Source of the DNA: Candidatus Uhrbacteria bacterium
Lineage (GTDB): Bacteria; Patescibacteriota; Patescibacteriia; UBA9934; GWF2-40-263
Assembly (NCBI GenBank): GCA_016208545.1
Contig: JACQXU010000022.1
Coordinates: forward strand, 1-32,627
Direction: 5' to 3'
Length of the DNA: 32,627 nt
The position numbers and the translations under genes were made by a program. Numbering within the stretch: position 1 is the first letter of the stretch; the number at the start of each line of letters is the position of its first letter. Positions 817-17,267 of the stretch are shown here, piece by piece. The notes under the pieces were generated by a model. The model saw nothing but the letters and a program-made list of their open reading frames with translations. It was not told the DNA's origin and did not search any database.

Positions 817-953
817 CCCGGTAGTACAACAATGATACTTATATTTGTTAGTGTTTCTTTGACTGACATTGTTACGACATCTTACGTATGGAGTCGTACA
901 ATCTTTATTAATACACAGCAGAACAGGAGACAGATCATTGTTGTCCTACCGGG
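817..953. mobile_element. MITE-like palindromic element, copy 1
   Basis: 137-bp element with 20-bp terminal inverted repeats (817-836 and 934-953, one mismatch). The left end begins CCCGGTAGTACAACAATGAT. A second inner stem around ATTGT(T)ACGAC flanks a TACGTA centre, so much of the element can fold into one imperfect hairpin. It carries no transposase. Flanking CATA on both sides fits a target duplication. Its left end touches the ftsA start codon. Read toward ftsA it contains a TATAAG box about 22 nt upstream of the ATG, which might act as a promoter, but no good -35 is visible. Confidence 0.8.
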
Positions 954-957
954 CATA

Positions 958-1094
958 CCCGATAGTACAACAATGATATTTATATTTGTTAGTGTTTCTT
1001 TGACTGACATTGTTACGACATCTTACGTATGGAGTCGTACAATCTTTATTAATACACAGCAGAACAGGAGACAGATCATTGTTGTCCTACCGGG
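958..1094. mobile_element. MITE-like palindromic element, copy 2
   Basis: Same 137-bp element as 817-953 with two substitutions (G to A at element position 5, C to T at position 22). Near-identity means either a recent tandem duplication by recombination across CATA or a second insertion at the same target. Read toward ftsA, an in-frame ATG formed at the copy boundary reaches a TAA inside the element, so no fused longer FtsA can be made. Confidence 0.8.
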
Positions 1095-1126
1095 CATACT
1101 CATACTTTTCTTCAAGTATAGCTCGT

Positions 1127-1489
1127 TTAGGAAAACAAACGCAAATGCGGGGCGAAAATCACTACACCGATTACGACAGCGATTAAAGACATAAGTAGCA
1201 CTGTCGCGGCCATAATGTCTTTAATGTCATGAACGATTGGATGAATTCTGGGTTTGAACGTGTCAACAATTCGTTCAAACACACTATTTATCAGCTCGAG
1301 AGTTAATATGAGTCCAATGAGCAATAAAAGTACAATCCATTCAAACGCGTTTACTTCAAACCAAATTGCCAGAACAATAATTGCAACTGCCGCAAGTGTT
1401 TGCATACGAAAATTTTGTTCACTTTTGAACACAACTCGAACACCTCGAAGCGCGTGAGAAAAACTTTTTATTAAACGACTTATAGACAT
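1127..1489 (-). CDS. dgkA: Diacylglycerol/undecaprenol kinase (DgkA family)
   Basis: Small integral-membrane lipid kinase that phosphorylates diacylglycerol or undecaprenol, recycling lipid carriers for the envelope. The 120-residue length is normal for the family. E24 in SEQNFRMQ, the ELINSVFE segment (E65, E72) and HDIKDIMAA (K90-D91) match the conserved ATP/Mg and substrate-site motifs. Three hydrophobic helices lie at about 30-46, 50-68 and 93-113. The start overlaps the end of ybeY by 10 bp, which suggests translational coupling. ybeY-dgkA-ftsA is a gene order I recall from CPR genomes. Substrate (DAG or undecaprenol) cannot be told from sequence; Gram-positive-type short enzymes are usually undecaprenol kinases. 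Confidence 0.93.
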   Translation of the reverse strand: MSISRLIKSFSHALRGVRVVFKSEQNFRMQTLAAVAIIVLAIWFEVNAFEWIVLLLLIGLILTLELINSVFERIVDTFKPRIHPIVHDIKDIMAATVLLMSLIAVVIGVVIFAPHLRLFS

Positions 1490-1896
1490 AGTCTGTTCAA
1501 AATTTTTGTTTGCAGTGAAAACATTTTTTCCGCATCTTTTGATTTTTCATGATCGTATCCGAATAAATGCAGTAGTCCATGAATTATCAAAAAAGTTATT
1601 TCTTTTTCTGCACTGTGTTTAATTTTTTTGGCTTGACGACTAGCTCGCGAATAGGAAATTAGAAGTTCGCCGCTGTCTTTTGTGAGTGGAAAAGACAAAA
1701 CGTCGGTCACGGAATCTTTTCCACGATAAACACTATTCGCGAAACGCATTGTTTTATTGTCAACAAACGCGATTGAAACAGTGTACTTTTTTGCTTTCAC
1801 TTCGCGGCTGACAAGTCGCAAAATCTTTGACAATTTAGAAATAGGAAAACGCTGACCGCTTTCTAACAATGTTTGATTGACTTCCGCGCGAATCAT
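1480..1896 (-). CDS. ybeY: Endoribonuclease YbeY (16S rRNA maturation)
   Basis: Single-strand-specific metallo-endoribonuclease of the UPF0054 family, acting in 16S rRNA 3'-end maturation and ribosome quality control. The metal-binding motif HGLLHLFGYDH is intact, with H106, H110 and H116 as ligands. The preceding SVTDVLSFPL segment at 62-71 is the usual conserved strand. 138 residues is slightly short, mainly at the N-terminus. It overlaps the upstream gene by 4 bp (1893-1896) and dgkA by 10 bp, so it sits in the middle of an operon. Confidence 0.96.
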   Translation of the reverse strand: MIRAEVNQTLLESGQRFPISKLSKILRLVSREVKAKKYTVSIAFVDNKTMRFANSVYRGKDSVTDVLSFPLTKDSGELLISYSRASRQAKKIKHSAEKEITFLIIHGLLHLFGYDHEKSKDAEKMFSLQTKILNRLCL

Positions 1897-2885
1897 AACA
1901 CGATTTTTTTCAAACTATTGATCATCATTTGAAAGGTCTGAACATAATCAGCTGTTGATTTCGTTGGAATTTCGTAAGTCAATGACAAAACTGTTGAATC
2001 AATCATAACAAGCGCGGCGCGTTTATTTTGTGCAATATAAAATTCAAGACCTGTTTTTGTGGTCGTCTTAACAATTTTTTCTTGTCCGCCTTGTTCTTGA
2101 GTCCAATCGCTTATTGTTTGAACAACAGCTTCAGGAGTTTGTGAACGAACAGCGATCACAAAAGATTCGCCGGTTGTTGTTTGAATAAAAGTTGACATTG
2201 GAGTTGGTCCGGTTTGCGTCTGCCAAATTGATGGATATACAAATTCAACAACTGAAGGAAGTGTAAAAGAAGAAACCAAATCGGCTTCGATCAGAGTTCC
2301 AGGCGCTATTCCACTTGGATTGTATAAATGAAAAACTTCATTGCCGTCCAAAAATCCATCAGCATCAGTGTCTGGTAAATTTAAGTTTGTTTTGTAAATC
2401 AATTGTTCTTCGATGTCTGTCAAACCGTCCGAATCTGTGTCTTTTCCCGGAACGATTTCGACAGACTGTGCAGGCTCTTCTTTTATTTCTTCTTCTTCTT
2501 TAACTATCGGTTTTTCAACTTCAGGTCGCGAAACAACAGATTGTGTAACAAGCTCTTGTGTTGTAGGAGTTTGTGTTTCAACACTCCGAAGCAAAATATA
2601 ACCAGTAACGATCAAAGCTAGAATCACAATTCCTCCGGAAATGAGAAGCGCTTTTGTGGAAGCTGATAAACCTTTTTTCGTTGGTTGTTTCAAAATTGGA
2701 GCCGGTTTTTGTGGAGGTGGCGGAGTCGGAGGAATGTTCACAGCCTGCGGCCTTGCTTGCCCTTTCGGTTCAACAATTTTTGATTCTTTGCCATGACGAT
2801 ATTGCTCGGGCATCGTAAAAATCTGCGCATCTGGTGCAGTTTTTTTCTGTTGCTGATTTTCCATTTTCAATTCTGTTTCCTGCAT
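1893..2885 (-). CDS. Single-pass membrane protein with TSP3 calcium-binding motifs
   Basis: Function unknown. The 330 residues run as follows: a Pro-rich cytoplasmic N-tail (1-78), one transmembrane helix (about 80-101, LLISGGIVILALIVTGYILL), an acidic linker, then two thrombospondin-type-3 motifs (DTDSDGLTDIEE and DTDADGFLDGNE) at about 150-180. A 140-residue C-terminal domain of unknown fold follows. No signal cleavage site is seen, so it is probably a type II anchor with the C-terminus outside. It is the third of three neighbouring proteins of this design and shares the DGxxDGNE...YNPSG stretch with them, but it alone has a large domain after the motif. A Met at codon 8 (2864) is an alternative start. 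Confidence 0.85.
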   Translation of the reverse strand: MQETELKMENQQQKKTAPDAQIFTMPEQYRHGKESKIVEPKGQARPQAVNIPPTPPPPQKPAPILKQPTKKGLSASTKALLISGGIVILALIVTGYILLRSVETQTPTTQELVTQSVVSRPEVEKPIVKEEEEIKEEPAQSVEIVPGKDTDSDGLTDIEEQLIYKTNLNLPDTDADGFLDGNEVFHLYNPSGIAPGTLIEADLVSSFTLPSVVEFVYPSIWQTQTGPTPMSTFIQTTTGESFVIAVRSQTPEAVVQTISDWTQEQGGQEKIVKTTTKTGLEFYIAQNKRAALVMIDSTVLSLTYEIPTKSTADYVQTFQMMINSLKKIVL

Positions 2886-2934
2886 AATTTTCCATTACCA
2901 CTTACTCCCTTTCTCCCTTTCTTTTATTTTTTTC

Positions 2935-3528
2935 TTAACTTCCACTTGGAACTTCCAACAACTTCCCTTGTCCGTTTGGATTATATCCGGCTTTAACTTC
3001 GTCGCCGTCTGAATATCCGTCGCCATCTGAATCTGGATTCAAAGGATTGGTTCCATAAACTTCGATCTCTTCGCGATCAAACAGAAAATCACCGTCTGTG
3101 TCTGAACTTGTTGCATTGGTTCCAAATTGAGCTTCTTGCAAATCAGACAGTCCGTCTTTATCTGTGTCAACTTCTATAGCCTCTTCAGCTTCTACTGCCT
3201 CTACAGCTTCTTCAGCTTCTACAGCTTCTTGAGCCGGTTCTTGAGGCGTAACAGGCGTTCTAGAACTCAAAATTCGCCAAGAAATTAAAAATGCAATAAC
3301 GATTACTGTCAAAACTGAAACAACGATGATAATAGTTTTTAGGTTTTGGGTTTTAGGTTTTGGGTGTTGGGTTTTGGGTGTTGGGTTTTGGGTGGAAGGA
3401 GTAGGAGAAGACTGAACTGGCTCCGAAACTAAATGAGTTGGCGGAGCTGTTGGCGGAATCACTTGCGGCGCGGCTTCGTCTGTTTTTGCAAAAATGTCTT
3501 CAGGAGGTTTTTGTAATTCGTCGAACAT
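2935..3528 (-). CDS. Single-pass membrane protein ending in TSP3 motifs
   Basis: Function unknown. In its 197 residues there is a Pro/Thr-rich cytoplasmic tail, a Lys-Thr-Gln-Asn-Pro low-complexity run at about 47-64, and a transmembrane helix at about 65-86 (IIIVVSVLTVIVIAFLISW). An Ala/Glu/Val-rich spacer (about 100-120) follows, then three TSP3-type Ca2+ motifs: DTDKDGLSDLQE, DTDGDFLFDREE and DSDGDGYSDGDE. The protein ends GYNPNGQGKLLEVPSGS. The TQNPTPKTQHPKPKTQN run is encoded by the AAAACCCAAAACC-type repeat that also occurs between genes, so an intergenic-style repeat has been absorbed into the reading frame. No Shine-Dalgarno; the leader is A/C-rich. Confidence 0.85.
   Translation of the reverse strand: MFDELQKPPEDIFAKTDEAAPQVIPPTAPPTHLVSEPVQSSPTPSTQNPTPKTQHPKPKTQNLKTIIIVVSVLTVIVIAFLISWRILSSRTPVTPQEPAQEAVEAEEAVEAVEAEEAIEVDTDKDGLSDLQEAQFGTNATSSDTDGDFLFDREEIEVYGTNPLNPDSDGDGYSDGDEVKAGYNPNGQGKLLEVPSGS
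3335..3394. repeat. GGTTTTGGGTTTTAGG word repeat inside a coding region
   Basis: About 60 bp of degenerate TTTTGGG(T/TG)T(T)TTAGG units, G-rich on the plus strand. It lies inside the minus-strand gene 2935-3528 and encodes its Gln-Asn-Pro-Lys-Thr linker. The same word occurs at 3529-3559, 4369-4390, 21224-21240 and 24951-24970. Confidence 0.85.
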
Positions 3529-3559
3529 AGGTTTTTGGTGTTAGGTTTTGGGTTTTAGG
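3529..3559. repeat. GGTTTTGGGTTTTAGG word repeat, intergenic
   Basis: Fills the gap between the genes at 2935-3528 and 3567-4364. Read in the gene direction it is an A/C-rich, nearly G-free leader (AAAACCCAAAACCTAACACC) just before the ATG at 3528. Confidence 0.8.
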
Positions 3560-3566
3560 AAAAAAA

Positions 3567-4364
3567 TTAAGGCAATTTTCCAGCGCCGTTTGGATTATAA
3601 CCTGCGGCGATTTCTTGACTGTCGCTATATCCATCTCCGTCAGTATCAGCTTTGTACGGATCAGTTCCGTACAATTTTTCTTGCGTGTTATCCAAATCGT
3701 CAAAATCCGGATCATCAACCAAAATCCATTCTTCCTTACACAATCCAATTCGGTCTTCGTCAATTAATTTCTCACAAACTCGAGAGTCTTGTTTTTGATT
3801 CGCCTCTTTAACGACGATCAAAAATTCACATTCTGATGGATCTTTTCCAAGCGTCGCACAATTTTCAGCAGTAACTGGCTCAAGACCAGAGTGGCATCCT
3901 TGTCGTTTATTCTCGTTTTGTATTTTATCACACAACTTCACATTTTGAGCAGAAACTGCAAGAGCATAATTCACACTGTCTGAACAAAGTCTTTTCCATT
4001 CTTCGTTAACGATATTTTCACAAATCGAGGTATCTTTTTTATCAACTCCAAGTTCCCAAACGCAAGCGTCATAACTTTTGTCTGTTAAGCCTTCGCAAAA
4101 CAAAACATTTCCGGTTTGAGAAGCAAGTTTTTGAGTTTGTTGTTGAGCGCATTTTTCCTTGTCAACCGCACTCTGACAGGTTTGTTCGATTTGAGCGCGT
4201 TGATTTTCAAGTTCCTGCGTTTGCAGAGATGTTTCATTTCTTCCGCTGATAAAACGAACAGCGCCTATCACCAAAAACACAGCAATTAAAACTCCGACTG
4301 CGATAATCGCGACAGGTTTCCAAGAAATTTGTTTTTGTTCAGTTGGATAGTCGGAGAAAGGCAT
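3567..4364 (-). CDS. Cys-rich single-pass membrane protein with C-terminal TSP3 motif
   Basis: Function unknown; 265 residues. A short cytoplasmic tail precedes a transmembrane helix at about 17-40 (VAIIAVGVLIAVFLVIGAVRF). A presumed extracellular domain (about 55-215) follows, with around a dozen cysteines at roughly regular spacing, in pairs such as ICENIVNEEWKRLC and LCDKIQNENKRQGC, suggesting a helical disulfide-linked repeat. The C-terminus has one clear TSP3 motif (DTDGDGYSDSQE) and ends AGYNPNGAGKLP, almost the same tail as the neighbouring 2935-3528 protein. It directly follows the giant adhesin gene (36 bp), so the products probably act together. Confidence 0.85.
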   Translation of the reverse strand: MPFSDYPTEQKQISWKPVAIIAVGVLIAVFLVIGAVRFISGRNETSLQTQELENQRAQIEQTCQSAVDKEKCAQQQTQKLASQTGNVLFCEGLTDKSYDACVWELGVDKKDTSICENIVNEEWKRLCSDSVNYALAVSAQNVKLCDKIQNENKRQGCHSGLEPVTAENCATLGKDPSECEFLIVVKEANQKQDSRVCEKLIDEDRIGLCKEEWILVDDPDFDDLDNTQEKLYGTDPYKADTDGDGYSDSQEIAAGYNPNGAGKLP

Positions 4365-4400: not shown

Positions 4401-7400
4401 TTACTGCGAAGGACAATACTCAAAATTAATGTTAGAAAAATTCATCGTTCCGGTTCCGTTGAAAATTGTTTGAATCGGCATCAAAGTTTGCTTGTTCTGA
4501 CACGCGAATGTTGACGGTAAAGGCAATTCAATATTTTGACCAACAGGAGTGATCGCAGTTTGCGAACTTGATTCTGTTCCCTTTGTCGCAGTAACTGTTG
4601 TTTTTGATTCCAAAACAGATTCGATGATTTTGTTATACATTCCCTTAATACCTTCAGCTGTCGTTGCTTGATACGCATAGTCTCCTTCAAAACAGTCATT
4701 AAGTGCTGACATTGTGTATCCATGGCATTTCATGCTAGACAAATGTTCCATGTAGACAATTTGAGTGGTGTTATTAGATATGACTGCGGAATAAAAAGTG
4801 ATGTCACCAGATTTTATATGATCATAAATCATTCCGTCTTCATAACGAGCTTCGGCAATGCAAGCATCAGGTCCATCATAATTATAATCTTCAGTATTTT
4901 CGTCCGTTTCTGAAGTAAACACCTTAGAATAATCAGTACAGTGGTGATCATATTCTGACGGTGTATTCTCATCAAAATCTATAGGATGGTTTGCTTCGCC
5001 GTCTGCAAGAAGAATTACAAATTTTTTGTTTTCCGAAGGAGACTGTTCATCTAAAATTTGAATTGCTTTTTGAATAGCTTTGCCAGTTAATGTCCATCCA
5101 CCTGTATTGTCCTTATAAGTTCCAATAATACTTTGTAGTATTGTATTATTCCCTGCTTCATTCAATGACAATAAACTGTCGGTGCTTGTTGGATTCATAA
5201 AAAGAACATCGTCTTGAACATTATGAACAGCATCGCCTTTTCCTGCCTCTTGTTCGTCTGGTGTTCCATATCCGTACGAGACTAAACCAATTCTGACTTC
5301 TCCTTCGTTGCCTTGATACGCATTGTACAAGTCGTCTATCGCTTGAATTGCGGATTCCGCGGCAATGTCAATTTTGCGATTTGGAGCAGTGGCGGCTGTT
5401 CCATCTGGAGCATCTTCCATTGTTCCTGTTAAATCCGTCACAAACACAATATCAATGTTTGGTTCAATTACATTTATGTTATCAATATTTGCTGTAATTT
5501 TTGTTCCAACAGAGCAAGCCGGCAAAACCAAAACCGCATTATCTGGCGAGAGTTTTTCTGTGTTGAAATAACTATAAAGATCAACGCTTGGAAGCGGTTG
5601 AGCACCGGAAAGTTCACTTTGCACTAAAATTCCTGTTTTCTTTAGTGAAAACGGACATGCTCCAGTACAATCACTCGCGCAAACAGGCGCAACGCAAACA
5701 CTATCTGCTCCGCAAAGAGTTTTATTTGCTGAACTAGTATAATCTGTTGTATTTTTGTCCGGTGGCTGAAGTGTGCATGGTTTGCCGTTATCTGCTCCGC
5801 CATTGCAAACTCCTGCGTAATGGCACGAATATCCTGATTCGCACGAACTATCAGTTAAAACATCACTTTTTGGACAACTCGCGCCACGTTTTGAATCTCC
5901 ATTATTGTAATCAATGCACCAATACGGCTGGTCGTTCCCATCGCAAAATTCATTTCCATTTATAATTCCGTCGCCGCAATACGAACCAGACAAAGTTTTA
6001 TATTGACACTGCCAATTGCAATAATTGCAAGTGTCGTCGTACGAAGCTGTGCACGGATTTGTGCTAAATGGTCCGACATTCTCTCCGCCATTGTCGCACG
6101 CCTCAACACCACTAAAAACATAATTATCTCCGCAGATATTTTTCTGGCATCCGTTTGTGCAACTATCATTGTTTGAATCATTTCCATCATCACATTTTTC
6201 AGTTCCTTCCACTTTTCCATTTCCGCAAACTTGATCTCCGCCAGAACACGCAGACCAACCAGGCCATGAACAATCATTCTGACAAACGCGAGTTCGAGTA
6301 AGTTCGTAAGTGAAATCGGAACATTCGGCGTTTAAACCGGCACAGTCGGTGTTTACATTGCATTTCTCTCCAACTTCTGTTCCTCCAACACAAACTTTAC
6401 TGTTTCCACATTCTAGTTTTCCAGCTCCTCCTCCGCAGGAATATCCTGTTGGACAATCACTTTGCGTTTCACAAGTTGTTAAATTATCAGTACAAAGTTT
6501 TCCAGCCCACTGTTCACTTCCTCCGTCGCACTGTTCCGGACCATTCACAATTTTGTCTCCGCAAGAAAGTCCCGGCTGTTTGCAGTCATATGTGCAAGTT
6601 TTGGTTGGAGTATTTCCGTATTGTCCGTTTGACGCAACACAAGAATTCAACTTTGCCCAACTTTGCGCACCAAGCGTTGCAAAATTTTCAATTGAACCGC
6701 AATCGCACTCTTCACCGCCTGCCAAATATCCATCACCGCACAAAAATGCTGTTGAAAGTAAACATCCTGTTCCGCAGTGGCCATAAGTTCCGTTTAATTC
6801 TCCGTCATCACAAATTTCATTTCCTTCCAAAACACCATTTCCGCACTCAAATTGAATAAGCGGCGAACCAGCTGTCATTGCCTCTTGCGCTGACTGAAAA
6901 CCTGAACAATCGTCTTTACACGCAACGTTAATGTATTCCGTTGAAACTGTTCCTCCTGACGGAGTCGGACATTTATCAACCAAAACTCCTTGATCCCAAA
7001 CCTTCGCGCATTCTATACTTTGCACTTGTCCCAATTCGCACGTTTCACCAATTCCTGAAACTCCATCGCCGCACACAGCTGAAATTCCCCAACTTGTGCT
7101 GTCAGCGCAGAAAAGTGGATTTGAAACAAATCCTTTCGGAACTGCGGCGAGTCCGCTTAAATACTCCGCAACAACTGTCGCGTCATCAGTTGGAAACTGA
7201 TCAATTGGGAAATTCCACACCGCATCTGCGTATTCAAGTTGAGTAAATAACGTATATTTTTCAGCGCCTTTATTTTGATAACCATAAACGTGCGATCCTT
7301 TTGGACAAACAAATTTCCCTTCCAACCCGTTAAAACAAGTTAAAGGATCAAAACCTTCGCCTTGCGACTTACAACCTTGCCAGAACTCGTCGATCGGATC

Positions 7401-10400
7401 TTTCGGAAGAGATGTTCCAACCGCGTTTGAAAGAACCGCGTTCCACGATTCCCATTTACTCACGCTCATTGCTGGAACATAAGTTCCTTGTTGAACTGTT
7501 GGATAACCTTCAACACATACTTCTGTGCCTGGACACTGCGGATCTGATGAACATCCTTGATTTTTTGTGACTGAACAATGTTTGTTTTGCAATCCATATT
7601 TTGTAAGCGCGGAAATCGTTGTTGTAATATCCGTCAATCTCTGCGTGTCATTTTGCAATTTTGCTTTGTCGTTGTCGCAAAATGCGTCTTTGGAAACATC
7701 AAGTGGACAATCTGATGCGAATCCGCTCACTGGTTTATCTTTGGAAATCGAACACTCGCCGTCAACAAATTCTTCAACACACTCACCATCCCATGAACAA
7801 TTTATAAAATCATTTTTTTCATTTTTCACATACGCGCCACTCATTTTTTTACACAGTCCGACATTGCTGACAGCAATTGTGTTTGCATTGAATTTCCAGT
7901 GATCGAAAATCTGCGCAAAAATTTCTTTCGCATCAATTCCAGCATTTGGATTATATGAAACAACGTAAATGTTTGGATATAAAATCTGACTGTGCTCATT
8001 TGCCGCGGCAACATAAGCTGTGTTTCCAGATTGGATCGCTTGATATCCATCAATTTCTATTTCTTTGTAAGTGCCTTTAAAATTTTGCGATTCAAACCAA
8101 TCCTTTGGGGAAAGATAACTCGGGTTTTGAAACACGCGAACTCCGATCGCGTCAGGCGTTCCTTCAACTTTGAAAAAAAGTTCCTGCAAAAGTCCGGCGG
8201 TTGCGACAGAAGTTACATCAACTGGATCAGCAAGCGACGGAAGATCATCAGTTGTTCCGTCTTCGCCTCGATCACGGCAATAATAGAAACCAAAGTTAGA
8301 TGGTTTTGTCGGATCTGTTTTTTCAATATATGGAAACCCAAGTGGTGAACCCAAAGCCGGCCATGGATTTTCACAAACAAGAGCTGTAATTTCAAGCGAA
8401 CCTGCTGTTTGCTTTCCTGATGTTGTCGGCGTATTTAGAGTATCTTTACCGATTGTCGCTGTCGCAACAACGTGCTCAAGTCCGTTATTTCCAACTGATG
8501 AAAATTCAGCTTTGTGCAACTGCTTTTTTGTAAGATCAACAATGTTTTCCGGAGTTCCACTTGCAAACGACGAACCAAAATCCCAAGTCCATCCGTAAAT
8601 GCTTGTTGAGTTGATCGGTTCGTAAACTCCAAGCCCGTCTCGGTAAGTCAGAGCTTTAGCGGTAAATTCGTGCGTTTCATTTTTCTTTGAGAAAAATTGT
8701 GGAGAATGAATTTCATAATCTTTCAAATTGAGCGTTTTGGTGTCTTCAACACTAACAGCTTCGAGCAAACAAACTTCTTTGCCGATCTTGAACGTATTTG
8801 TCGTTTGCCCAAATTGGCATTTATTTCCTGATCCTAAACATATTCCAACTCCATTTTCACTTAACACTCCGTCGGCTTTATTGTCGTTTGTGATTTTGTC
8901 GCCAATTACTACAATTTGATAATAAGAATTCGGTTCAAGTAAATCATTATATTGAATCACAACTTTTTGACCGCCTACTGCATCATCAATTGTTTCAAAA
9001 GTTACTGGCGCATAACAAAATTGCAAAGCCGCTGAAACGTCTTTTCCAAAAAACGACCAAAATCCTGTTTTTACAAAATTCCAAAGTTTAGCAAACCAGC
9101 CAGATGGCGCTTGCCCTGTTGAAACAAGCTGATAGTTTGATGGACAAAGTGTTAGATTTGTTGAAATGTTTTTTCCGTTTATTGTTATCAATTTCAATCG
9201 AATGTTAGAAAGTCCATCCTTCACATTAACAAACGGCGGTTTTACATTTGGCCGAGAGAAACAACAACTACCTGCGCCGCATCCAAGCAGTTTACCATCT
9301 CCGCACGACTGATCGGTTTTACATGAACACTCGATTGCGAGCTCTGTGTCGCCAATCACATTTTCTGCTGAGGCTGTAATTGTTGAAATCGCGTAACCTG
9401 TTGTTGGATCAACCTCTTTTGGAGCATTTGTAGCAATTTGAGCCGCACCGTATCCTCCAATCGAGACTTTACTGCCAACAGCCGCTTCGCATTCCTCGCC
9501 TGTTTGTTTTTGAATGTCGCCGCAATACGATGGAGCTACATATTGAACAGACGAACCTTCTTTCAAACACACTGCGGAACATCCGTCGCCGGAATTCAAA
9601 TTTCCATCATCGCAATCCTCGCCTTTTTCAGGCGCGCCGCTATTACCGCAACATGGAATTTTGAACGGCTGACATTTTGCTGGAGCTGTGCAATCCGCAT
9701 CAACAGAACACGACTCATTATTGTCAGAACAGACAAGCGCACACTCTGCTGTTCCTTCGTTCAAACATTTTTCATTGCATCCATCTCCAGAAACCGCATT
9801 GCCGTCGTCGCAATCTTCTCCGGATTCCTTTTTCGCATTTCCACACGTCGCATAAACGAATTCTTCCGCGATCGCTCCTTCAAACAAACATTGGCCAGAA
9901 CATCCATCGCCATTTTTGTTATTTCCATCATCACAATCCTCGCCTCCTTTTTGCGGCGCGAAATCAACAATTCCGTCTCCGCAAGTTGAGCCAACAGAAG
10001 ATGATCCGTTGTTTAAACAAATTGAATTGCATCCGTCGCCGTTGGCTGTGTTTCCATCATCGCACTGCTCGAAAGCGTCAACGACATTATTTCCACACGT
10101 TGTCGCATTTCCCTCTTTCAAACAACTTGAAGAACATCCGTCATTTGGCGTTGTGTTTCCGTCATCACATTCTTCAGCTTCATTTTTTCCATCGCCGTTG
10201 TAGTCAATAATTCCATCTCCGCAAACTGATTGAGTGTGTTTAATTGAAGCTCCGGCATTCAAACAGTTGAACGTGCACCATTGTGGAAGTTGGTTTGTGA
10301 GACTTATCGCGCCGTTTTTGAGCATAAACGCAACATCCTGTGTTCCGCCGCCTTTCGCAACTGTAAAATTATCCGGCGTATCTTTTGAAACCCATGATTT

Positions 10401-13400
10401 CCATGTGTAGTTTGAATTTTGTAAAGCCTGTCCTGACGCGTCGCAATCATCTGGCGCTCCGTAAGTTGTTGCCTTGTATTCTTGTTTTTGTCCAACGTAA
10501 TTCAATTTCTTTTTGTCTGGTGAAACGACAATCGAATCAATTCCGCAACTGATGTCTGAATCTTTTGTTTTGAAAACCCAAGAAAAATCATCGCCGTAAT
10601 TTGCGCCAGAATCTTTGAGTGCAACTCCGGAATCAGATTTTATTGAAGTTCCGTTCAAAACCATTCTGTACCAAGTGTTCGCAAGCAAAACTGAACCGGT
10701 TTTGAAATCAACAAACATTGTTTTTGTGTCTTTGTTGTAAGTGACATTTTGAATGATGTTTGTTTTTGTGAGTTCACCTGCCGCGCAAAGCGAATCTTCA
10801 CACTCAAAAAGCGAAACAACAGCGGTTGAAACAGTGGACGGATCAAGATCTGCGTCAAAACGAACCCAAGGCTGTGCGTTCACGCACGCGGTTTTACAAT
10901 TTGGAAAAAATGCGTCAACTGTTGGATCACTAAAATCAATTGTCAAATCTCCGGTGTCTTCAGGTGTGTTTGCCGTGTTTGTAACTTCAGCTTTAATTTT
11001 TGCGATTTTCCCTTTTGTTTCTTCTGTTGTTTTAACGGTCGCCAAACATAAAGCGTCCCCAACTGTCGGAGCTTGAACAGCGGCTCCGAAAAAATCCGAT
11101 GACCACGAAAGAGTTTGTCCTTCACAACTGATCGTTACACATTTATTGTTTTTTGAAATGAGTTGCGAACCGTAATCTACTGTTTGATCGTCTTGGATCG
11201 CTGTGAATTCTGCTGGAGATACATTCACTCCGCCGACTTCACAAAAATCATTTTCACCGGAAGTTGTAAATTCCCAACTATAATCTTTTTCCATGAACGC
11301 ACCGCCAACAGAATCGCTCGCGCGAACTCCGCCTTGTCCGCCTTTAATTGTTGTGCGATAAAGCGAGGTTGGAGAAAACTGTTGTTTTGGCGTCCAATTA
11401 AACGAAATTTCTGTTACTGAAATTGTCCCTTCGAGTTCTTGCCACGCACCACAGCTTCCGTCGGTTTTTAGATCAGTGCATTTTTCAACAATCACATTGT
11501 CCGGAATCGAAGTCTTGTCCATTTGTTTTGTAAATTCCGCGGTAACTATCGCATTCAAACAAACAGAAGTTGAATCAGCCCAACTTTCCCACGGACTTGG
11601 TGAAATTGTATCTTCATCGCACGCAACTTTCACTGTTGGAGCAATAGGAATTAAACCTGTTGAAATACGAAAGGCGAAATGCGATTCTTTCGGTTTCAAA
11701 TCGCAGTCAATTTGATTTGCTTTGCATGTTCCATCTCCGCAACAAAAAGTATTCACAGGACACACAAAATCATTTTGACAATTTCCAACAGCAAAATTTA
11801 CAGAGTTTGATGTGTAACCAGTTTGAGTTGTGGCAAAAATAGGGCCAGTTTTACCTAAATCAGGAACATTCGCGTCAGTGATTGTTGTATTTTCCCAAAT
11901 GAGCGGAACGGATTGCTGATTCTCAAAAAATGTGATTGATCCCTTTTCAGATCCAAAATTTTCACCAACGACTTTTACAGGCGTTCCGATTGGCCCCGCA
12001 ACTGGATCAAGCTCACAAATCGCAGGCCCTGGCGCGCCGTCAACAATCACAAAATCTTTGTTGTTTGAAGTTTGGCCGTCTTGGCGCGTGAGAGAAAGTT
12101 GATATGTTCCAGAAACAATTTCATCACTCGGAACTTTCACAATGACTGATGTGTTTCCCCAAAACTTCGGACATTGATCTGGAAATATCGTATCAGCAAC
12201 AAATTTTTTCCCTAAACCATCTAAAAAATAAACTTGACCGATTTGCGTTCCAAAATCTGTTCCAAGAATTGTGACGTACTGTCCGGACGGTCCCCAATTT
12301 GGAGCGCCTTCACATGTGCCTTCGCCGCAGTCTGTGGACTCAGCGCAAAGCTCGCCATTTTTAGTGCCTCCACTACAAGCTTTCCAACCTGTTTCAATAT
12401 ACGAAATGTTTGGTTTTGTGGCCGCTTCCGCAGGGTCCAAAACTGTAAACGCAAGTTTATTTGATCCTACACGCACTGAAACGCAAAGTCCTGCGTTGTT
12501 TTTTTCACATGTTTCATCTGACGAACAATAAGCGAGAGTTTCACTGCACCACGAAGTCGCGCAAGTATTTTTCTCTCCGCAATCGCTGTCAGACGCGCAA
12601 AGCGTTCCTGTTTCTTTTCCTGTTTCATCAATGCAACGATAATCGCCGGTGAACGCTTGAGTGTAAATTTCACCGGAAGAAATGTTTGGAACAACTGTTT
12701 TGACTTGAGTATCAGACCAGGCCAAACTGGCTGGCGGAAGAAAATTTTTAAAATAAATCTCCGACGAACCTTGTTTTTCTCCAAGTCCAAGCCCTGAAAA
12801 AATTGTCTCTGTGGCTGTTTCGGCTTTTTCTGGTTCAACATCGCAAAGTCCAGGACGTTTCACAGCGTTCACATCAAAATCAGAAGAAAACGGCCCATAA
12901 TCATCGTCGGTACGATCTGTTTTTACGTCAGGTCCAGAAGTTGCAACTTCGATCGGACCATCTTTGGCTTCATTTGGAACTTGAACAATAATTTGTTTGT
13001 CGCTCCATTTTGTTTCGCTGTTGCAGACATAAGCTGAAACTCCAATTTTTTCATCATCCTTCAATCCCAAAAATGTAACGCTCCCGCCAAGCGCGCCAAA
13101 TCCTTCTCCTTTGATCGTAACCAAATTTTGAACTGCTCCATCGCCAGGAGACACAGAATCAATTCGCGGTTTGCTTACACAAACTTCGTTTTCGCACACA
13201 AGACCTGGCGCGCATTCTGCTGTTTGTCCGCACGGGTCATCCGCACATTTGCCGCAATAAAACGCGCTTTCGGAATCACCGCCGCAATTCAAACCTGTTT
13301 CGCCAAACTCTTCGTCGATCTCTGCATTACCACAATTTACCGCTTTAACAACAGCTGAAATTTTTGTCGCAACAGCTGTGTTCCCTGCGCAATCAGATGC

Positions 13401-14474
13401 TGAAGCCCAAAGCGGATAACTTTTGTTTGTGATGTAACCTATTGTGTCCCATTCAACAGTATCATCTGTTGAAAAAGTGTTAGGCGAATCTTTTCCTGTT
13501 AATTTTTTCTCGCTTGAAAAATTCAAGCCTGAAGTGTAAAGCGCTTCGTCGTCGTCGACCGCGTAAAAATCAACACTTGAAACTCCTGTGTCATCTTTTG
13601 TTTGTGATTGCAAAAGCTGAATCGATCCAACAATCACAGATTGACCGTTTGTTGGAGTCTTCATGCTGATTGTCGGTTTTTTTGTGTCAACACCTTCACC
13701 TGTTGTGAATGAAAAATCACACGGCGACTCAACAGTGCAAGAAAGCCCTGCGCCATTTGTTGATTTGAGAACCGTGGCGTTGACATTGAGTTCGTAATCT
13801 GTGTTTGCGGTAAAACAATGAACAGTGCCGTTTGGATCAGAACAAAAAGCCGATGGTGTGAAAGTAACAACACTTCCTTTGGTCACAAAAGTTCCTTCGA
13901 CTGGATCGCCGTTTTTTACTTTAATTTGAATTCCATCAGCGACAGTCGCGGAATTCACGCTTTTTGAAAAAACAAGTTGAAGTTTGATGTTGCGAAGCGT
14001 GTTTGCGCATTCTGTGTTGACTGAATTGAGTTTGAAAGAGGAAAGAGTTGTGCTGTCTGGATACAAACCGGGTCCTCCATCTTCGGTTGTAATACCTCCT
14101 CCAGATGTTTCAACAAGTTTACCAATTATGAATTGAACAATTCCAAATGAAGCTAGAACAATTATCAGTCCAACAATTGCCTGTTGCAAAATCTTTTTTG
14201 CTGTTTCAATCCGTTTTGTGTTTCCAACGGCTGTCATGTATAAAAATCCAGCGTAAACAATCATGACAACAGCAATAATTCCAACAAAACTAACGAAAGT
14301 CCGAATAAGCCTCGCAATAATGAGCTGAATCGACGGACCTGTTGCAAATCCAGAAGCCTCTGCAAACGCTTTTAGATCAACTCCTTGCGCGAAAACCGGA
14401 ACAGCAATAATCAACCCAACGCTCAAAAGCGCGAGAAAGAAACCATATAGAAATGATAGACGAGAAGTACGCAT
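4401..14474 (-). CDS. Giant pilin-anchored surface adhesin (3357 aa): TIG, Ig-like, Cys-rich repeats, vWA
   Basis: Probable secreted, membrane-tethered adhesin. Residues 1-29 form a signal peptide ending PVFA|QG. Residues about 50-118 are a TrbC/VirB2 pilin-like two-helix module (IARLIRTFV...YAGFLYM, then AIVGLIIVLASFGIVQFIIG). With the signal peptide removed this places the whole remainder outside. In order follow SbsA-type Ig-like domains (about 145-260, 950-1070, 1190-1300) and IPT/TIG domains (about 435-530, 545-610, 725-790, 815-890). A first block of Myxococcus-type Cys repeats (CDDGNxxxGDGCxxxC, five clear copies, about 1415-1665) is followed by a PKD-like region (about 1925-2010). A second, more degenerate Cys block (about 2465-2945) comes before a vWA domain (about 3005-3290) whose MIDAS looks intact: DLTGT at 3014-3018, a later TLTGK Thr and an LLADGEAN Asp. 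No enzymatic motif is seen. The ligand is unknown; attachment to a host cell is an inference. Confidence 0.9.
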   Translation of the reverse strand: MRTSRLSFLYGFFLALLSVGLIIAVPVFAQGVDLKAFAEASGFATGPSIQLIIARLIRTFVSFVGIIAVVMIVYAGFLYMTAVGNTKRIETAKKILQQAIVGLIIVLASFGIVQFIIGKLVETSGGGITTEDGGPGLYPDSTTLSSFKLNSVNTECANTLRNIKLQLVFSKSVNSATVADGIQIKVKNGDPVEGTFVTKGSVVTFTPSAFCSDPNGTVHCFTANTDYELNVNATVLKSTNGAGLSCTVESPCDFSFTTGEGVDTKKPTISMKTPTNGQSVIVGSIQLLQSQTKDDTGVSSVDFYAVDDDEALYTSGLNFSSEKKLTGKDSPNTFSTDDTVEWDTIGYITNKSYPLWASASDCAGNTAVATKISAVVKAVNCGNAEIDEEFGETGLNCGGDSESAFYCGKCADDPCGQTAECAPGLVCENEVCVSKPRIDSVSPGDGAVQNLVTIKGEGFGALGGSVTFLGLKDDEKIGVSAYVCNSETKWSDKQIIVQVPNEAKDGPIEVATSGPDVKTDRTDDDYGPFSSDFDVNAVKRPGLCDVEPEKAETATETIFSGLGLGEKQGSSEIYFKNFLPPASLAWSDTQVKTVVPNISSGEIYTQAFTGDYRCIDETGKETGTLCASDSDCGEKNTCATSWCSETLAYCSSDETCEKNNAGLCVSVRVGSNKLAFTVLDPAEAATKPNISYIETGWKACSGGTKNGELCAESTDCGEGTCEGAPNWGPSGQYVTILGTDFGTQIGQVYFLDGLGKKFVADTIFPDQCPKFWGNTSVIVKVPSDEIVSGTYQLSLTRQDGQTSNNKDFVIVDGAPGPAICELDPVAGPIGTPVKVVGENFGSEKGSITFFENQQSVPLIWENTTITDANVPDLGKTGPIFATTQTGYTSNSVNFAVGNCQNDFVCPVNTFCCGDGTCKANQIDCDLKPKESHFAFRISTGLIPIAPTVKVACDEDTISPSPWESWADSTSVCLNAIVTAEFTKQMDKTSIPDNVIVEKCTDLKTDGSCGAWQELEGTISVTEISFNWTPKQQFSPTSLYRTTIKGGQGGVRASDSVGGAFMEKDYSWEFTTSGENDFCEVGGVNVSPAEFTAIQDDQTVDYGSQLISKNNKCVTISCEGQTLSWSSDFFGAAVQAPTVGDALCLATVKTTEETKGKIAKIKAEVTNTANTPEDTGDLTIDFSDPTVDAFFPNCKTACVNAQPWVRFDADLDPSTVSTAVVSLFECEDSLCAAGELTKTNIIQNVTYNKDTKTMFVDFKTGSVLLANTWYRMVLNGTSIKSDSGVALKDSGANYGDDFSWVFKTKDSDISCGIDSIVVSPDKKKLNYVGQKQEYKATTYGAPDDCDASGQALQNSNYTWKSWVSKDTPDNFTVAKGGGTQDVAFMLKNGAISLTNQLPQWCTFNCLNAGASIKHTQSVCGDGIIDYNGDGKNEAEECDDGNTTPNDGCSSSCLKEGNATTCGNNVVDAFEQCDDGNTANGDGCNSICLNNGSSSVGSTCGDGIVDFAPQKGGEDCDDGNNKNGDGCSGQCLFEGAIAEEFVYATCGNAKKESGEDCDDGNAVSGDGCNEKCLNEGTAECALVCSDNNESCSVDADCTAPAKCQPFKIPCCGNSGAPEKGEDCDDGNLNSGDGCSAVCLKEGSSVQYVAPSYCGDIQKQTGEECEAAVGSKVSIGGYGAAQIATNAPKEVDPTTGYAISTITASAENVIGDTELAIECSCKTDQSCGDGKLLGCGAGSCCFSRPNVKPPFVNVKDGLSNIRLKLITINGKNISTNLTLCPSNYQLVSTGQAPSGWFAKLWNFVKTGFWSFFGKDVSAALQFCYAPVTFETIDDAVGGQKVVIQYNDLLEPNSYYQIVVIGDKITNDNKADGVLSENGVGICLGSGNKCQFGQTTNTFKIGKEVCLLEAVSVEDTKTLNLKDYEIHSPQFFSKKNETHEFTAKALTYRDGLGVYEPINSTSIYGWTWDFGSSFASGTPENIVDLTKKQLHKAEFSSVGNNGLEHVVATATIGKDTLNTPTTSGKQTAGSLEITALVCENPWPALGSPLGFPYIEKTDPTKPSNFGFYYCRDRGEDGTTDDLPSLADPVDVTSVATAGLLQELFFKVEGTPDAIGVRVFQNPSYLSPKDWFESQNFKGTYKEIEIDGYQAIQSGNTAYVAAANEHSQILYPNIYVVSYNPNAGIDAKEIFAQIFDHWKFNANTIAVSNVGLCKKMSGAYVKNEKNDFINCSWDGECVEEFVDGECSISKDKPVSGFASDCPLDVSKDAFCDNDKAKLQNDTQRLTDITTTISALTKYGLQNKHCSVTKNQGCSSDPQCPGTEVCVEGYPTVQQGTYVPAMSVSKWESWNAVLSNAVGTSLPKDPIDEFWQGCKSQGEGFDPLTCFNGLEGKFVCPKGSHVYGYQNKGAEKYTLFTQLEYADAVWNFPIDQFPTDDATVVAEYLSGLAAVPKGFVSNPLFCADSTSWGISAVCGDGVSGIGETCELGQVQSIECAKVWDQGVLVDKCPTPSGGTVSTEYINVACKDDCSGFQSAQEAMTAGSPLIQFECGNGVLEGNEICDDGELNGTYGHCGTGCLLSTAFLCGDGYLAGGEECDCGSIENFATLGAQSWAKLNSCVASNGQYGNTPTKTCTYDCKQPGLSCGDKIVNGPEQCDGGSEQWAGKLCTDNLTTCETQSDCPTGYSCGGGAGKLECGNSKVCVGGTEVGEKCNVNTDCAGLNAECSDFTYELTRTRVCQNDCSWPGWSACSGGDQVCGNGKVEGTEKCDDGNDSNNDSCTNGCQKNICGDNYVFSGVEACDNGGENVGPFSTNPCTASYDDTCNYCNWQCQYKTLSGSYCGDGIINGNEFCDGNDQPYWCIDYNNGDSKRGASCPKSDVLTDSSCESGYSCHYAGVCNGGADNGKPCTLQPPDKNTTDYTSSANKTLCGADSVCVAPVCASDCTGACPFSLKKTGILVQSELSGAQPLPSVDLYSYFNTEKLSPDNAVLVLPACSVGTKITANIDNINVIEPNIDIVFVTDLTGTMEDAPDGTAATAPNRKIDIAAESAIQAIDDLYNAYQGNEGEVRIGLVSYGYGTPDEQEAGKGDAVHNVQDDVLFMNPTSTDSLLSLNEAGNNTILQSIIGTYKDNTGGWTLTGKAIQKAIQILDEQSPSENKKFVILLADGEANHPIDFDENTPSEYDHHCTDYSKVFTSETDENTEDYNYDGPDACIAEARYEDGMIYDHIKSGDITFYSAVISNNTTQIVYMEHLSSMKCHGYTMSALNDCFEGDYAYQATTAEGIKGMYNKIIESVLESKTTVTATKGTESSSQTAITPVGQNIELPLPSTFACQNKQTLMPIQTIFNGTGTMNFSNINFEYCPSQ

Positions 14475-14481
14475 GAAGAAT

Positions 14482-14575
14482 TGTAGTAAGTGGCTTGTAG
14501 CAAGTAGTAGGTATACTTGATACTTACTACTTACTACCTACTACCTACTACTTATTACCAACTACTTACTACTAA
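14482..14575. repeat. TAGTAAG/TAGTAGG heptad repeats, inverted pair
   Basis: The 103-bp gap between the 600-aa gene and the giant gene is almost wholly built of degenerate 7-mers. TAGTAAG/TAGTAGG lie on the left and their complements CTTACTAC/CCTACTA on the right, so transcripts can fold into a hairpin. On the minus strand the last unit leaves CTTACTAC 8 nt before the giant gene's ATG. It might act as a weak terminator, promoter -10 or leader; none is proven. Confidence 0.85.
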
Positions 14576-14577
14576 CT

Positions 14578-16380
14578 TTATTTCACATTCCCCGGCAATG
14601 TTCCTGGTTCATTCACAGTTTGACAAGCGGTCGCAGACGGATTTCCGTTACAACAATACGGCTGATTTGAATTTCCGCCGTCACAGTTTCCGCCGACTTG
14701 CATCGAAGGATACATACAAATCTGATAAACGCTCTTCAAACCGTTTGTGATAACTGGATAATAATCGTATCCGCCTTCGGCATTGCTGATAAATGCGGCG
14801 TGATTTACGAGCGCTTTACTGGTTTTAGCGTTCACATCATCTTCTTTTCCAGTTGAAAACCACATTAGATAAAGCGGATCCGGCCAAACAGAAACGTTCG
14901 TGGTGTTAACAGTTGACGCTTTGAGCAAAGTGTTGAACGAAATCTCAAGTAGAGCGTTTTGATCAATCTCTTGACCATCGATTCCAGGATTCAAAGTTGT
15001 AATTTTTGGAACTGTGTCGTTTATCGTGTTTGTTGTTTTGAAAACCCACGCGTAATTGTCGTTTTTACTACTATCAGAACAAACAATCGTGTCATTTTCC
15101 GTTCCGCACGCGACACCGTCTCCGTTTCCGTCAAGCGAATTACCTGATGCATCAGTCAAACCATCATATTTCACACCAATTAACTGTGCTTGCGGAGGAT
15201 TGGAATTATCAAGTGTTGCGGCTTTTGCTGTTACACTCAAATCCGCGTTTGCCGGCAAACAATAAATTACATCTCCGCATGGATCTTTTGAACAAGCATT
15301 AATCGAAGTAAATCCAACTGTTTTGTAACCATTGCTAATTTCATAAGTTCCCTGAACATTTCCAACATCTTTTTGCGCAATTGTGATATTTGTAAACTGC
15401 GTATCTTTTCCAGTGATATAAGAACCTGTCGAAGATACAGGATCCATTGCTTCATTGAATGTTATTTCAACTGTGATATTTCGCGCTTCTTCTGAATCGT
15501 TTTTTGGAATCATAGAAACCACTTTTGGCGGAGTTAGGTCAATTTCCGTTGAAACTTCAAACGTCCATCCATAACCGGAAGAATATACGCCAACAAATGC
15601 GTTCGATCCATCTGCTTTTTTGATTCCAGGCTGAAGCGCAACAGTGTAATTCGTGTCTGAAGTCGGATTTCCCAAGAGATCAACAGGATCAAAAACAAAA
15701 ATCGTTTTTTCTTCGTTCGTCGCAACTTTCACTGCGGAGCTGTCGAGCTTTTTGTCTTTACCTTTTGCTGTTTCAAAAATCCAAACATTATTATTGTCGA
15801 GTGTTCCGTCATCTTTGATGATAGTTTTCGACTCGATCGCTTCTTTAAACGTCACGAAAATTTTCGTATTGCGCGGAATGTCAATTGCGTTGCGCGGTGG
15901 ATAATGACTTTCAACAATTCCGGCTCCCAAAGCTCCTGCAAGCGGTTCTTTGTACTTTTCCACAGCAGTTTTAGAAACGATCTGGCCGCCTGTTGCGCCA
16001 ACAATCGCATTTATAATGAACGATGCAATCGCGTATGAAGAAAAAATGATGAGCATTCCGACAACTGCTTGAGTAATCATCTTTTTTGCTTTGTCAGTTT
16101 TCGCGGCTTCGCCTTTTGACGTCATGTACAAAAATCCGGCGTAGATGACAAGAATAACAAAAATAATTCCTAAAATTCCAAGAAAAGCTCGAATAAGTCG
16201 CGCAATAATCAAAATAATGTTTGTTTGCGGTAAACCAGACGCTTCAGCTGAAGTTGTGAGAAAATCTTCCTGCGCAAACACTGGATCAACAAGACCAAAT
16301 AAAACAAAAACACACAGCACGCCAAAGCCTGCCGCGCAAACGACAAATGAACGCAAACGTGTCCGATAAGAATCGGTCAT
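14578..16380 (-). CDS. Pilin-anchored Ig-like surface protein (600 aa)
   Basis: Probable exported surface protein and structural relative of the 3357-aa neighbour. It has a signal peptide 1-36 (PVFA|QED), then the same AEASG...IIARLIRAF...VIYAGFLYM...QAVVGMLIIFSSYAIASFIIN two-helix TrbC/VirB2-like module at about 50-125. Three SbsA-type Ig-like domains follow (starting near PPRNAIDIPRNTKIFVTF, PPKVVSMIPKNDSEEARN and VPKITTLNPGIDGQEID). The Cys-containing C-terminal tail (GGNCDGGNSNQPYCCNG) has no Cys-repeat array and no vWA. It lies upstream of the giant gene on the same strand, so the two are likely co-expressed and could be shaft-associated partners. The ATG is preceded by a 30-nt pyrimidine-rich leader without Shine-Dalgarno. 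Confidence 0.88.
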   Translation of the reverse strand: MTDSYRTRLRSFVVCAAGFGVLCVFVLFGLVDPVFAQEDFLTTSAEASGLPQTNIILIIARLIRAFLGILGIIFVILVIYAGFLYMTSKGEAAKTDKAKKMITQAVVGMLIIFSSYAIASFIINAIVGATGGQIVSKTAVEKYKEPLAGALGAGIVESHYPPRNAIDIPRNTKIFVTFKEAIESKTIIKDDGTLDNNNVWIFETAKGKDKKLDSSAVKVATNEEKTIFVFDPVDLLGNPTSDTNYTVALQPGIKKADGSNAFVGVYSSGYGWTFEVSTEIDLTPPKVVSMIPKNDSEEARNITVEITFNEAMDPVSSTGSYITGKDTQFTNITIAQKDVGNVQGTYEISNGYKTVGFTSINACSKDPCGDVIYCLPANADLSVTAKAATLDNSNPPQAQLIGVKYDGLTDASGNSLDGNGDGVACGTENDTIVCSDSSKNDNYAWVFKTTNTINDTVPKITTLNPGIDGQEIDQNALLEISFNTLLKASTVNTTNVSVWPDPLYLMWFSTGKEDDVNAKTSKALVNHAAFISNAEGGYDYYPVITNGLKSVYQICMYPSMQVGGNCDGGNSNQPYCCNGNPSATACQTVNEPGTLPGNVK

Positions 16381-16508: not shown

Positions 16509-17267
16509 TTACATAACCTCCACAACAACCGTTGAAACGCCGTACAACAAAACAACTGCAATTGAACCGATGAAACCAGTCATTATTTTTCTCCATGCTG
16601 AAACATGCGACTCATCGCGCATGCCGGAAACCATATAATCAAATCCGCCTGCTAAAATTAAATTCACGGTCAAAATCCCAAACCAAAGAAGTAGAACCCG
16701 AAAAATACGCACACCAGTTTCAAAAAATGAATATGCTTGCAAAGACGCAGGAACAATATCAATTGCGGCAAGTGCCGGAAAGGCTAATCCGACTCCAAAA
16801 ACTGCAAGCACAAATACTGCAAGCAATGTTTCAATAATTTGTTTAACGCGAGTTCCGTCAGCTTTGCCTTGAACAGCTTTCATAACAGCTCCCATCGCTT
16901 TTCCCATTTCCTGTCTGCTTTTCACACCAGATTCTTCAAGAGTTTTTTTCACAATCTGTGTTAATTCGTCGTCGGACATTTGCTTAGGAAGATACGCCTC
17001 TAAAACCGCGATTTCTGCGCGAGCTTGAGAAGCTAGATCTTCGCGATTCGCGCTTTCGTATGACACTAATCCATCGCGCAACTGTTTCACTTGCGATCGA
17101 ATCACACCCAAAATTTCCTCATCTGAAAGTTCGTGCTGAACATCAATCTGTTTATTTTTCATTGCAGAACGCAACAAACGCAACGTTGAAAGCGTTGCGT
17201 CGTTTTTGCTTTTCATTGCGTCTTTCATCGCGTTTGTGATTTGGTCAGAAAGAGACATAGTATACAT
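16509..17267 (-). CDS. YqeY (GatB-like) domain fused to a signal-peptide/pilin-like two-helix module
   Basis: An unusual 252-residue fusion. Residues 4-150 are a complete YqeY/Asn-Gln-amidotransferase-like domain (MSLSDQITNAMKDAMKSK..., EAYLPKQMSDDEL, MGKAMGAVMKAVQGKADG) ending VKQIIETLLA, where normal YqeY proteins stop. Without a break it runs into VFVLAVFGVGLAFPALAA, which looks like a signal-peptide core and AxA cleavage site. Two more helices follow (RVLLLWFGILTVNLILAGGFDYMVSG and IMTGFIGSIAVVLLYGVSTVVV), laid out like the pilin module of the two adhesins upstream in this window. An in-frame ATG at 16883 has GGGAG 5 nt ahead (16889-16893), so the membrane part may also be made alone. The start could equally be the Met at 17258. 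YqeY is usually cytoplasmic and tRNA-linked by family resemblance only. Confidence 0.85.
   Translation of the reverse strand: MYTMSLSDQITNAMKDAMKSKNDATLSTLRLLRSAMKNKQIDVQHELSDEEILGVIRSQVKQLRDGLVSYESANREDLASQARAEIAVLEAYLPKQMSDDELTQIVKKTLEESGVKSRQEMGKAMGAVMKAVQGKADGTRVKQIIETLLAVFVLAVFGVGLAFPALAAIDIVPASLQAYSFFETGVRIFRVLLLWFGILTVNLILAGGFDYMVSGMRDESHVSAWRKIMTGFIGSIAVVLLYGVSTVVVEVM

Follow-up and report, generated by a model that had tools for sequence, protein, structure and literature searches.

Two adjacent genes in the window, the whole stretch of 32,627 nucleotides of a Candidatus Uhrbacteria genome that was analysed, encode surface proteins of 600 aa (P0001) and 3357 aa (P0002) in which a VirB2-family pilin domain carries long extracellular regions. 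Neither is a short subunit ending just past the second helix, as classical pilins are, so the full proteins are a new architecture, distinct from classical pilins. By a narrow balance of probability, we read them as T4SS-pilin-borne adhesins, namely VirB2-type minor or tip pilins that would be inserted into a pilus. The original prediction had left two options, and the pilus-integrated adhesin is favoured over the re-used membrane anchor.

Organization of the locus

All the features described here lie on the reverse strand. P0001 is an ORF at 14578..16380 with Pfam matches to Big_5 (three times), TrbC and T4SS_pilin, and P0002 is an ORF at 4401..14474. Each begins with a signal peptide predicted from sequence (residues 1-36, ...PVFA|QED, 16273..16380 in P0001; residues 1-29, 14388..14474 in P0002), followed by the pilin module (residues 38-130, 15991..16269, and residues 42-124, 14103..14351, respectively). 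The two N-termini have the same layout, a signal peptide (...VFAQ), the motif series AEASG...LIIARLIR...YAGFLYMT... and two hydrophobic helices, with 58 of 132 residues in common (z ~33 against shuffled sequence), which bears out the prediction of two neighbouring exported proteins with a common signal peptide and two-helix module. The long regions predicted to follow the module are also present. P0001 harbors Ig-like Big_5 domains (14791..15933, Pfam and model). P0002 contains a first Big_5 domain (residues 161-258, 13701..13994, Pfam), four stretches of IPT/TIG domains (approximately 11775..13169; PF01833, E 2e-16), a main Cys-rich block of DUF4215/myxococcus-type repeats (approximately 9555..10247; TIGR02232, E 9e-38, 8 stretches; PF13948) with more copies downstream, and a vWA domain (residues 3008-3166, 4977..5453; PF00092) with the MIDAS motif DLTGTM...T...ADG. 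Further downstream, three membrane-anchored proteins (1893..4364), two of them with clear TSP3 repeats (PF18884), belong to a gene order that is conserved in relatives.

The YqeY ORF just upstream of P0001 (16509-17267) bears at its C-terminus, in frame, a third pilin-like signal peptide and two-helix hairpin module (16512..16823), identified by alignment. This module aligns to the third of the short pilins encoded elsewhere in the genome (z 13) and to the P0001 module (z 9), and matches NF045849 at E 0.3 only. Its counterpart in one related locus (L055) is a separate, overlapping gene.

Homology of the module to T4SS pilins

The P0002 module passes the Pfam cut-off for T4SS_pilin (PF18895; 27.9 vs 26.6 bits, E 2.6e-6), whereas the single-sequence match of P0001 (22.3 bits, E 1.4e-4) is below this curated cut-off of 26.6. 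P0001 also matches TrbC (PF04956, E 1e-4), and both modules match NF045849, the Mbov_0395-type family of pilin-like conjugal transfer proteins (E down to 3e-8), with scores below the family cut-off. A T4SS_pilin search of the whole genome gave nine places, i.e. five short pilins encoded as an array on contig C51, two mid-sized proteins (contigs C25 and C36), P0001 and P0002, the last two both above cut-off in this search (35.1 bits for P0002). The P0001 module is identical to array pilin 1, which itself passes the NF045849 cut-off, at 52 of 104 positions (50%, z 37), a likeness equal to that between array pilins 1 and 2. When a profile of the adhesin modules was compared by hhalign with the array pilins of the order, including the five of this genome, the probability was 99.9 and the E-value 1.9e-32. 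Four invariant glycines (G65, G76, G84 and G102 of array pilin 1) correspond to G71, G82, G90 and G108, invariant in the P0001-type modules; in the P0002 series the G65 position is not fully conserved (0.91).

In the AlphaFold2 model, the P0001 module consists of a short helix and two long helices separated by a short turn (residues 38-48, 55-87 and 92-129). Sequence and model thus both indicate a signal peptide, then two long hydrophobic helices with a short basic turn, as in TrbC/VirB2/TraA conjugative pilins and in the pilin-like protein of the Mbov_0395 ICE, to which the direct HMM matches above lead (PF04956, NF045849). Unlike P0001 and P0002, those proteins are small subunits without ectodomains. 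The module profile had no match among the sequences of solved structures, and neither P0001, the N-terminus of P0002 nor one array pilin had any in PHROGs. The predicted likeness of the module to a conjugative pilin subunit (VirB2/TrbC) is confirmed by these family and profile matches, and at the sequence level its homology to T4SS pilins can be taken as established, beyond a look-alike.

T4SS genes and their linkage to the pair

The search for T4SS-like partners suggested in the original prediction was positive. A cluster on contig C36 codes for a VirB4 ATPase (above the NF045971 cut-off), a TrsD homologue, PrgI, a VirB6-like protein and an M23 peptidase; a VirD4-like ATPase is present on contig C48. 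The VirB6-like protein, large and polytopic, was assigned by its place in the VirB6 position and its sequence, with no library hit. This gene set is the one described for the T4SS of Patescibacteria, and the VirB2-like pilin arrays of that description, here an array of five, belong to the same module family (PMC12102498). In the known array pilins the chain is short and stops just past the second helix, whereas extracellular domains of about 470 to 3200 aa follow the module in the pair. The cluster has the same gene order in a relative, G005, where it lies beside serS.

The pair itself lies outside the T4SS cluster. It is found hundreds of kb from VirB4 in two one-contig relatives (G110 and G202) and ~20 kb away in a third (G183). 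This distance weighs little, since in those relatives VirB4 is not linked to the pilin array either. The genomes compared are metagenome assemblies, some with masked stretches. Two genomes that seemed to have the pair without VirB4 (G022 and G165) were dropped as counter-evidence: in G022, serS is missing as well, the gene next to the T4SS cluster in G005 of the same genus, and in G165 ~195 kb of the 947-kb contig read N, with the VirB6-like gene present.

Distribution and synteny

T4SS_pilin matches were obtained in all 39 genomes searched, this one included, with about nine in each as a rule, and many relatives harbor an adjacent pair of ~600 and ~3100-3600 aa, which places the observation beyond chance. 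The giant lies directly after the P0001 homologue in 68 of 75 loci, with gaps of mostly a few bases, and four of the remaining seven loci end at or near a contig edge. Complete giants are mostly 3,065-3,600 aa long. An open frame of 14,266 aa in G099 is left out of account, as it spans a stretch masked as N.

The nearest named relatives are Candidatus Uhrbacteria, and homologues are also present in Falkow-, Magasanik- and Komeilibacteria, all of which we take, from the organism names, to form the class ABY1. Of 191 genomes sampled across the class, 190 match the P0001 profile, 96 of them well beyond the pilin module; outside the class, the module alone is covered among the matches listed. The comparison of gene order with other CPR genomes proposed in the original prediction reveals a pair that is old and syntenic in ABY1. 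The idea of a surface protein built on a pilin module recurs in another lineage of Patescibacteria, as indicated by proteins of 1,490-1,660 aa that have the same module and are placed after other pilin-like genes.

Extracellular arms and vWA domain

The C-terminal 427 residues of P0002 were modelled (pLDDT 82), and the best solved matches of the model are the pilus adhesins PitA, SpaC and RrgA, the tip protein Mfa5 and GBS104, then integrin headpieces. Of the relatives that can be aligned at the C-terminus, most have the MIDAS motif (D-x-S/T-x-S/T); the more distant giants are not alignable there by sequence. Conservation along the giant is lowest in the vWA region (about 0.22-0.29), as expected for a tip that would bind a partner; relaxed constraint would look alike. 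P0002 resembles the tip adhesins of sortase pili (RrgA, SpaC, GBS104, PitA) in its predicted vWA domain with flanking beta domains and in its MIDAS, and a role as distal binding tip is plausible. It differs from them in having no C-terminal LPXTG and in that its anchor, a T4SS pilin, is at the opposite end, and the likeness is one of fold, at 11-14% identity. Among the relatives checked, two LPxTG strings were found, neither C-terminal. The domain content as a whole suggests a role in adhesion. The contact function proposed here would make the proteins functional analogues of the VirB5 tip protein and the PrgB adhesin of other T4SSs, with no sequence match; in particular, the Pfam and NCBIfam scans gave no VirB5 family match for P0001 or P0002.

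Pilus assembly or other uses of the module

The module has a mean pairwise identity of 0.51 in both P0001 and P0002. The corresponding values are 0.16-0.20 for the signal peptides (0.16 in P0001) and, over almost the same set of genomes, 0.19 for the single membrane-spanning anchor of the TSP3 protein next to the pair. Moreover, the P0001 and P0002 modules are more alike within a genome (0.48 identity) than between genomes (0.40; Wilcoxon p 9e-11, an optimistic value as the genomes are related), and a stricter control, in which the partner from the same genome was compared with that of a near relative, gave p 0.02. The within-genome identity reaches about 75% in some genomes, and signal peptides and ectodomains are generally without such likeness. 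Consistently, P0001 and P0002 modules pair within genomes in a tree of 96 module sequences, which are too short for firm branching. Recent gene conversion is unlikely, as the DNA identity of the most similar pairs is no higher than about 74%. Compared with the array pilins, the modules match those of their own genome only slightly better, the own array being best in three cases of ten. As far as sequences can tell, conservation, common invariant positions and co-variation favour a pilin whose packing with partners persists. Such co-variation is what common packing would produce, and it could also result from a complex of P0001 with P0002, from old gene conversion or from a common lipid environment.

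These data bear most directly on the possibility that a pilin gene, after duplication, acquired ectodomains by fusion and that its product now does no more than keep them in the membrane, outside the pilus and the T4SS. This would agree with the fact that no other anchor is apparent, P0001 and P0002 having neither a C-terminal LPXTG nor a hydrophobic C-terminal segment, and with the lack of linkage to VirB4 in most relatives checked. In addition, some large pilin-module proteins elsewhere in the phylum end in a hydrophobic C-terminus, so the module need not mean pilus assembly, and ectodomains this large could not decorate every subunit, which counts against the pilus reading. Nevertheless, a simple anchor is not expected to keep pilin-specific invariant residues, as the contrast with the ordinary TSP3 anchor illustrates, nor would it explain two modules that co-vary within genomes, and we consider this explanation unlikely, if a serious one.

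The same co-variation, together with the strict adjacency and short gaps of the two genes and the third pilin-like module directly upstream, would suit a hetero-oligomeric membrane complex of P0001 and P0002, perhaps with the YqeY-fused pilin, that presents the giant arm independently of a T4SS pilus. On its own, however, such a complex leaves unexplained why the module is so close to the array pilins, invariant glycines included, and it appears rather improbable.

Still more doubtful is a surface layer in which P0001 is an S-layer-like structural protein attached through its pilin hairpin, with P0002 standing on P0001 as a long fibre. The few Ig-like domains kept throughout the P0001 family fit it, as does the top solved match of the P0001 model (mean pLDDT 82), the S-layer protein SbsC, but the TM-score is 0.16 and a transpeptidase and titin Ig domains score similarly, so that the modelled fold resembles a generic chain of Ig domains. 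Finally, the idea that the similarity to VirB2 is superficial and common to any two-helix membrane hairpin, to which the sub-threshold single-sequence match of P0001 might point, can practically be set aside given the profile-profile E-value, the genome-level matches above cut-off, the z-score to array pilin 1 and the common invariant positions.

A pilin-hydrolase family

One of the two mid-sized proteins, encoded on contig C36, combines the pilin module with an N-acetylmuramoyl-L-alanine amidase. Its relatives, matching mainly over the module, are present in 83 of the 95 class genomes sampled, and sampled members carry an Amidase_2, M23, SLT, C39 or GDSL domain after the module. A mid-sized pilin-module gene lies ~3-14 kb from VirB4 on C36 and in G005, G020, G110 and G202 (in the relatives this concerns the gene position, not the C-terminal domain). 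By analogy, such proteins resemble a pilin to which a wall-opening function of the VirB1 type has been added, and the family supports reading the module as a common T4SS chassis. We tentatively extend this to ABY1 as a whole: the VirB2 pilin may be an interchangeable chassis, and the T4SS pilus, composed of short array pilins alongside minor pilins bearing giant vWA adhesins or peptidoglycan hydrolases, an organelle for attachment and wall opening in a life on other cells, an extension that is possible rather than probable.

Proposed assembly and implications

F-type pilins have both termini facing outward, which makes a C-terminal arm sterically possible on some subunits. If P0001 and P0002 are pilus-borne adhesins, each precursor would be exported by Sec and cut by signal peptidase, leaving a membrane hairpin whose two ends face outward and whose basic loop faces inward; the Ig/TIG/Cys-rich chain would form an outward stalk and the vWA domain a binding tip. 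Less certainly, the module might co-assemble with the short array pilins via the same packing surfaces, with the arms as a cap or decoration on the T4SS pilus or at its base, where they might play the part in cell contact that VirB5 or PrgB plays elsewhere. Structures of the T-pilus and of archaeal pili show that such pilins form lipid-containing tubes (PMC9905601).

VirB2-like pilin arrays, known from Patescibacteria (PMC12102498), are essential in S. epibionticum (PMC10633639). The T4SS of the phylum is essential in the one species tested and its pilus only inferred so far; a 2025 review mentions a pilus just as a possibility (PMC12857230), and the role of the system has been called completely unknown (PMC11665869). 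The survey of 3,035 genomes in PMC12102498 reports no PrgB-type T4SS adhesin, and pilin-adhesin fusions are not mentioned under the terms searched in its text. Likewise, the open-access literature searched holds no description of pilin-adhesin or pilin-hydrolase fusions or of Uhrbacteria pilins, an absence that is no proof of novelty.

The class-wide pilin-adhesin pair is a concrete candidate for the contact part of the Patescibacteria T4SS, with named, testable partners. It suggests how ABY1 cells, which are tiny and, from what is known of the phylum, probably host-dependent, may attach themselves to other cells, and it could be used to track host binding in this large, uncultivated lineage. 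From the sister family with hydrolases, it seems that wall-cutting enzymes may be borne on the same pilus as well.

Pilin-like modules in other protein contexts

Upstream of the gene pair encoding the giant protein and its 600-aa partner, a single open reading frame (16509-17267, minus strand) joins YqeY to a third pilin-like module made up of a signal peptide and two helices, and the same fusion, of about 242-257 aa, is found in many Uhrbacteria (loci L053-L065). In one of these loci (L055), YqeY and the signal-peptide/two-helix module are encoded by two separate, overlapping genes. The fusion has an odd arrangement, with the signal peptide lying internally, behind a cytosolic domain.

The T4SS_pilin module also occurs mid-protein in a family that spans the class (L016:8328-9938, L015:9235-10572 and L156-L165), whose C-terminal domain varies among Amidase_2, M23, SLT, C39 and GDSL; VirB4 lies within about 3-14 kb of several of these genes. 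In another lineage of the phylum (L149-L153), proteins of 1,490-1,660 aa combine a signal peptide, a pilin module and a long ectodomain, in some cases with a hydrophobic C-terminus, and their genes sit downstream of other pilin-like genes. Separately, a gene for an exported 2,801-aa protein immediately precedes a VirB6-like gene in one relative (G165, L177:6684-18350).

Variants and neighbors of the giant gene

In a relative (L058:6439-18860), two successive ORFs of 2385 and 1753 aa take the place of the giant gene, and of these only the first includes a pilin module. Within a hypothetical ORF of the window (832-1194), a stretch of roughly 130 bases is duplicated in tandem almost perfectly (832-1130); the duplication lies beside the beginning of the ftsA-like gene and could be a small repeat or an assembly feature. 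The giant gene is followed by genes for three membrane proteins (1893-4364, minus strand), each crossing the membrane once and at least two carrying TSP3 repeats. Similar genes come after the giant gene in relatives, and the three proteins may belong to one surface apparatus with the giant protein.
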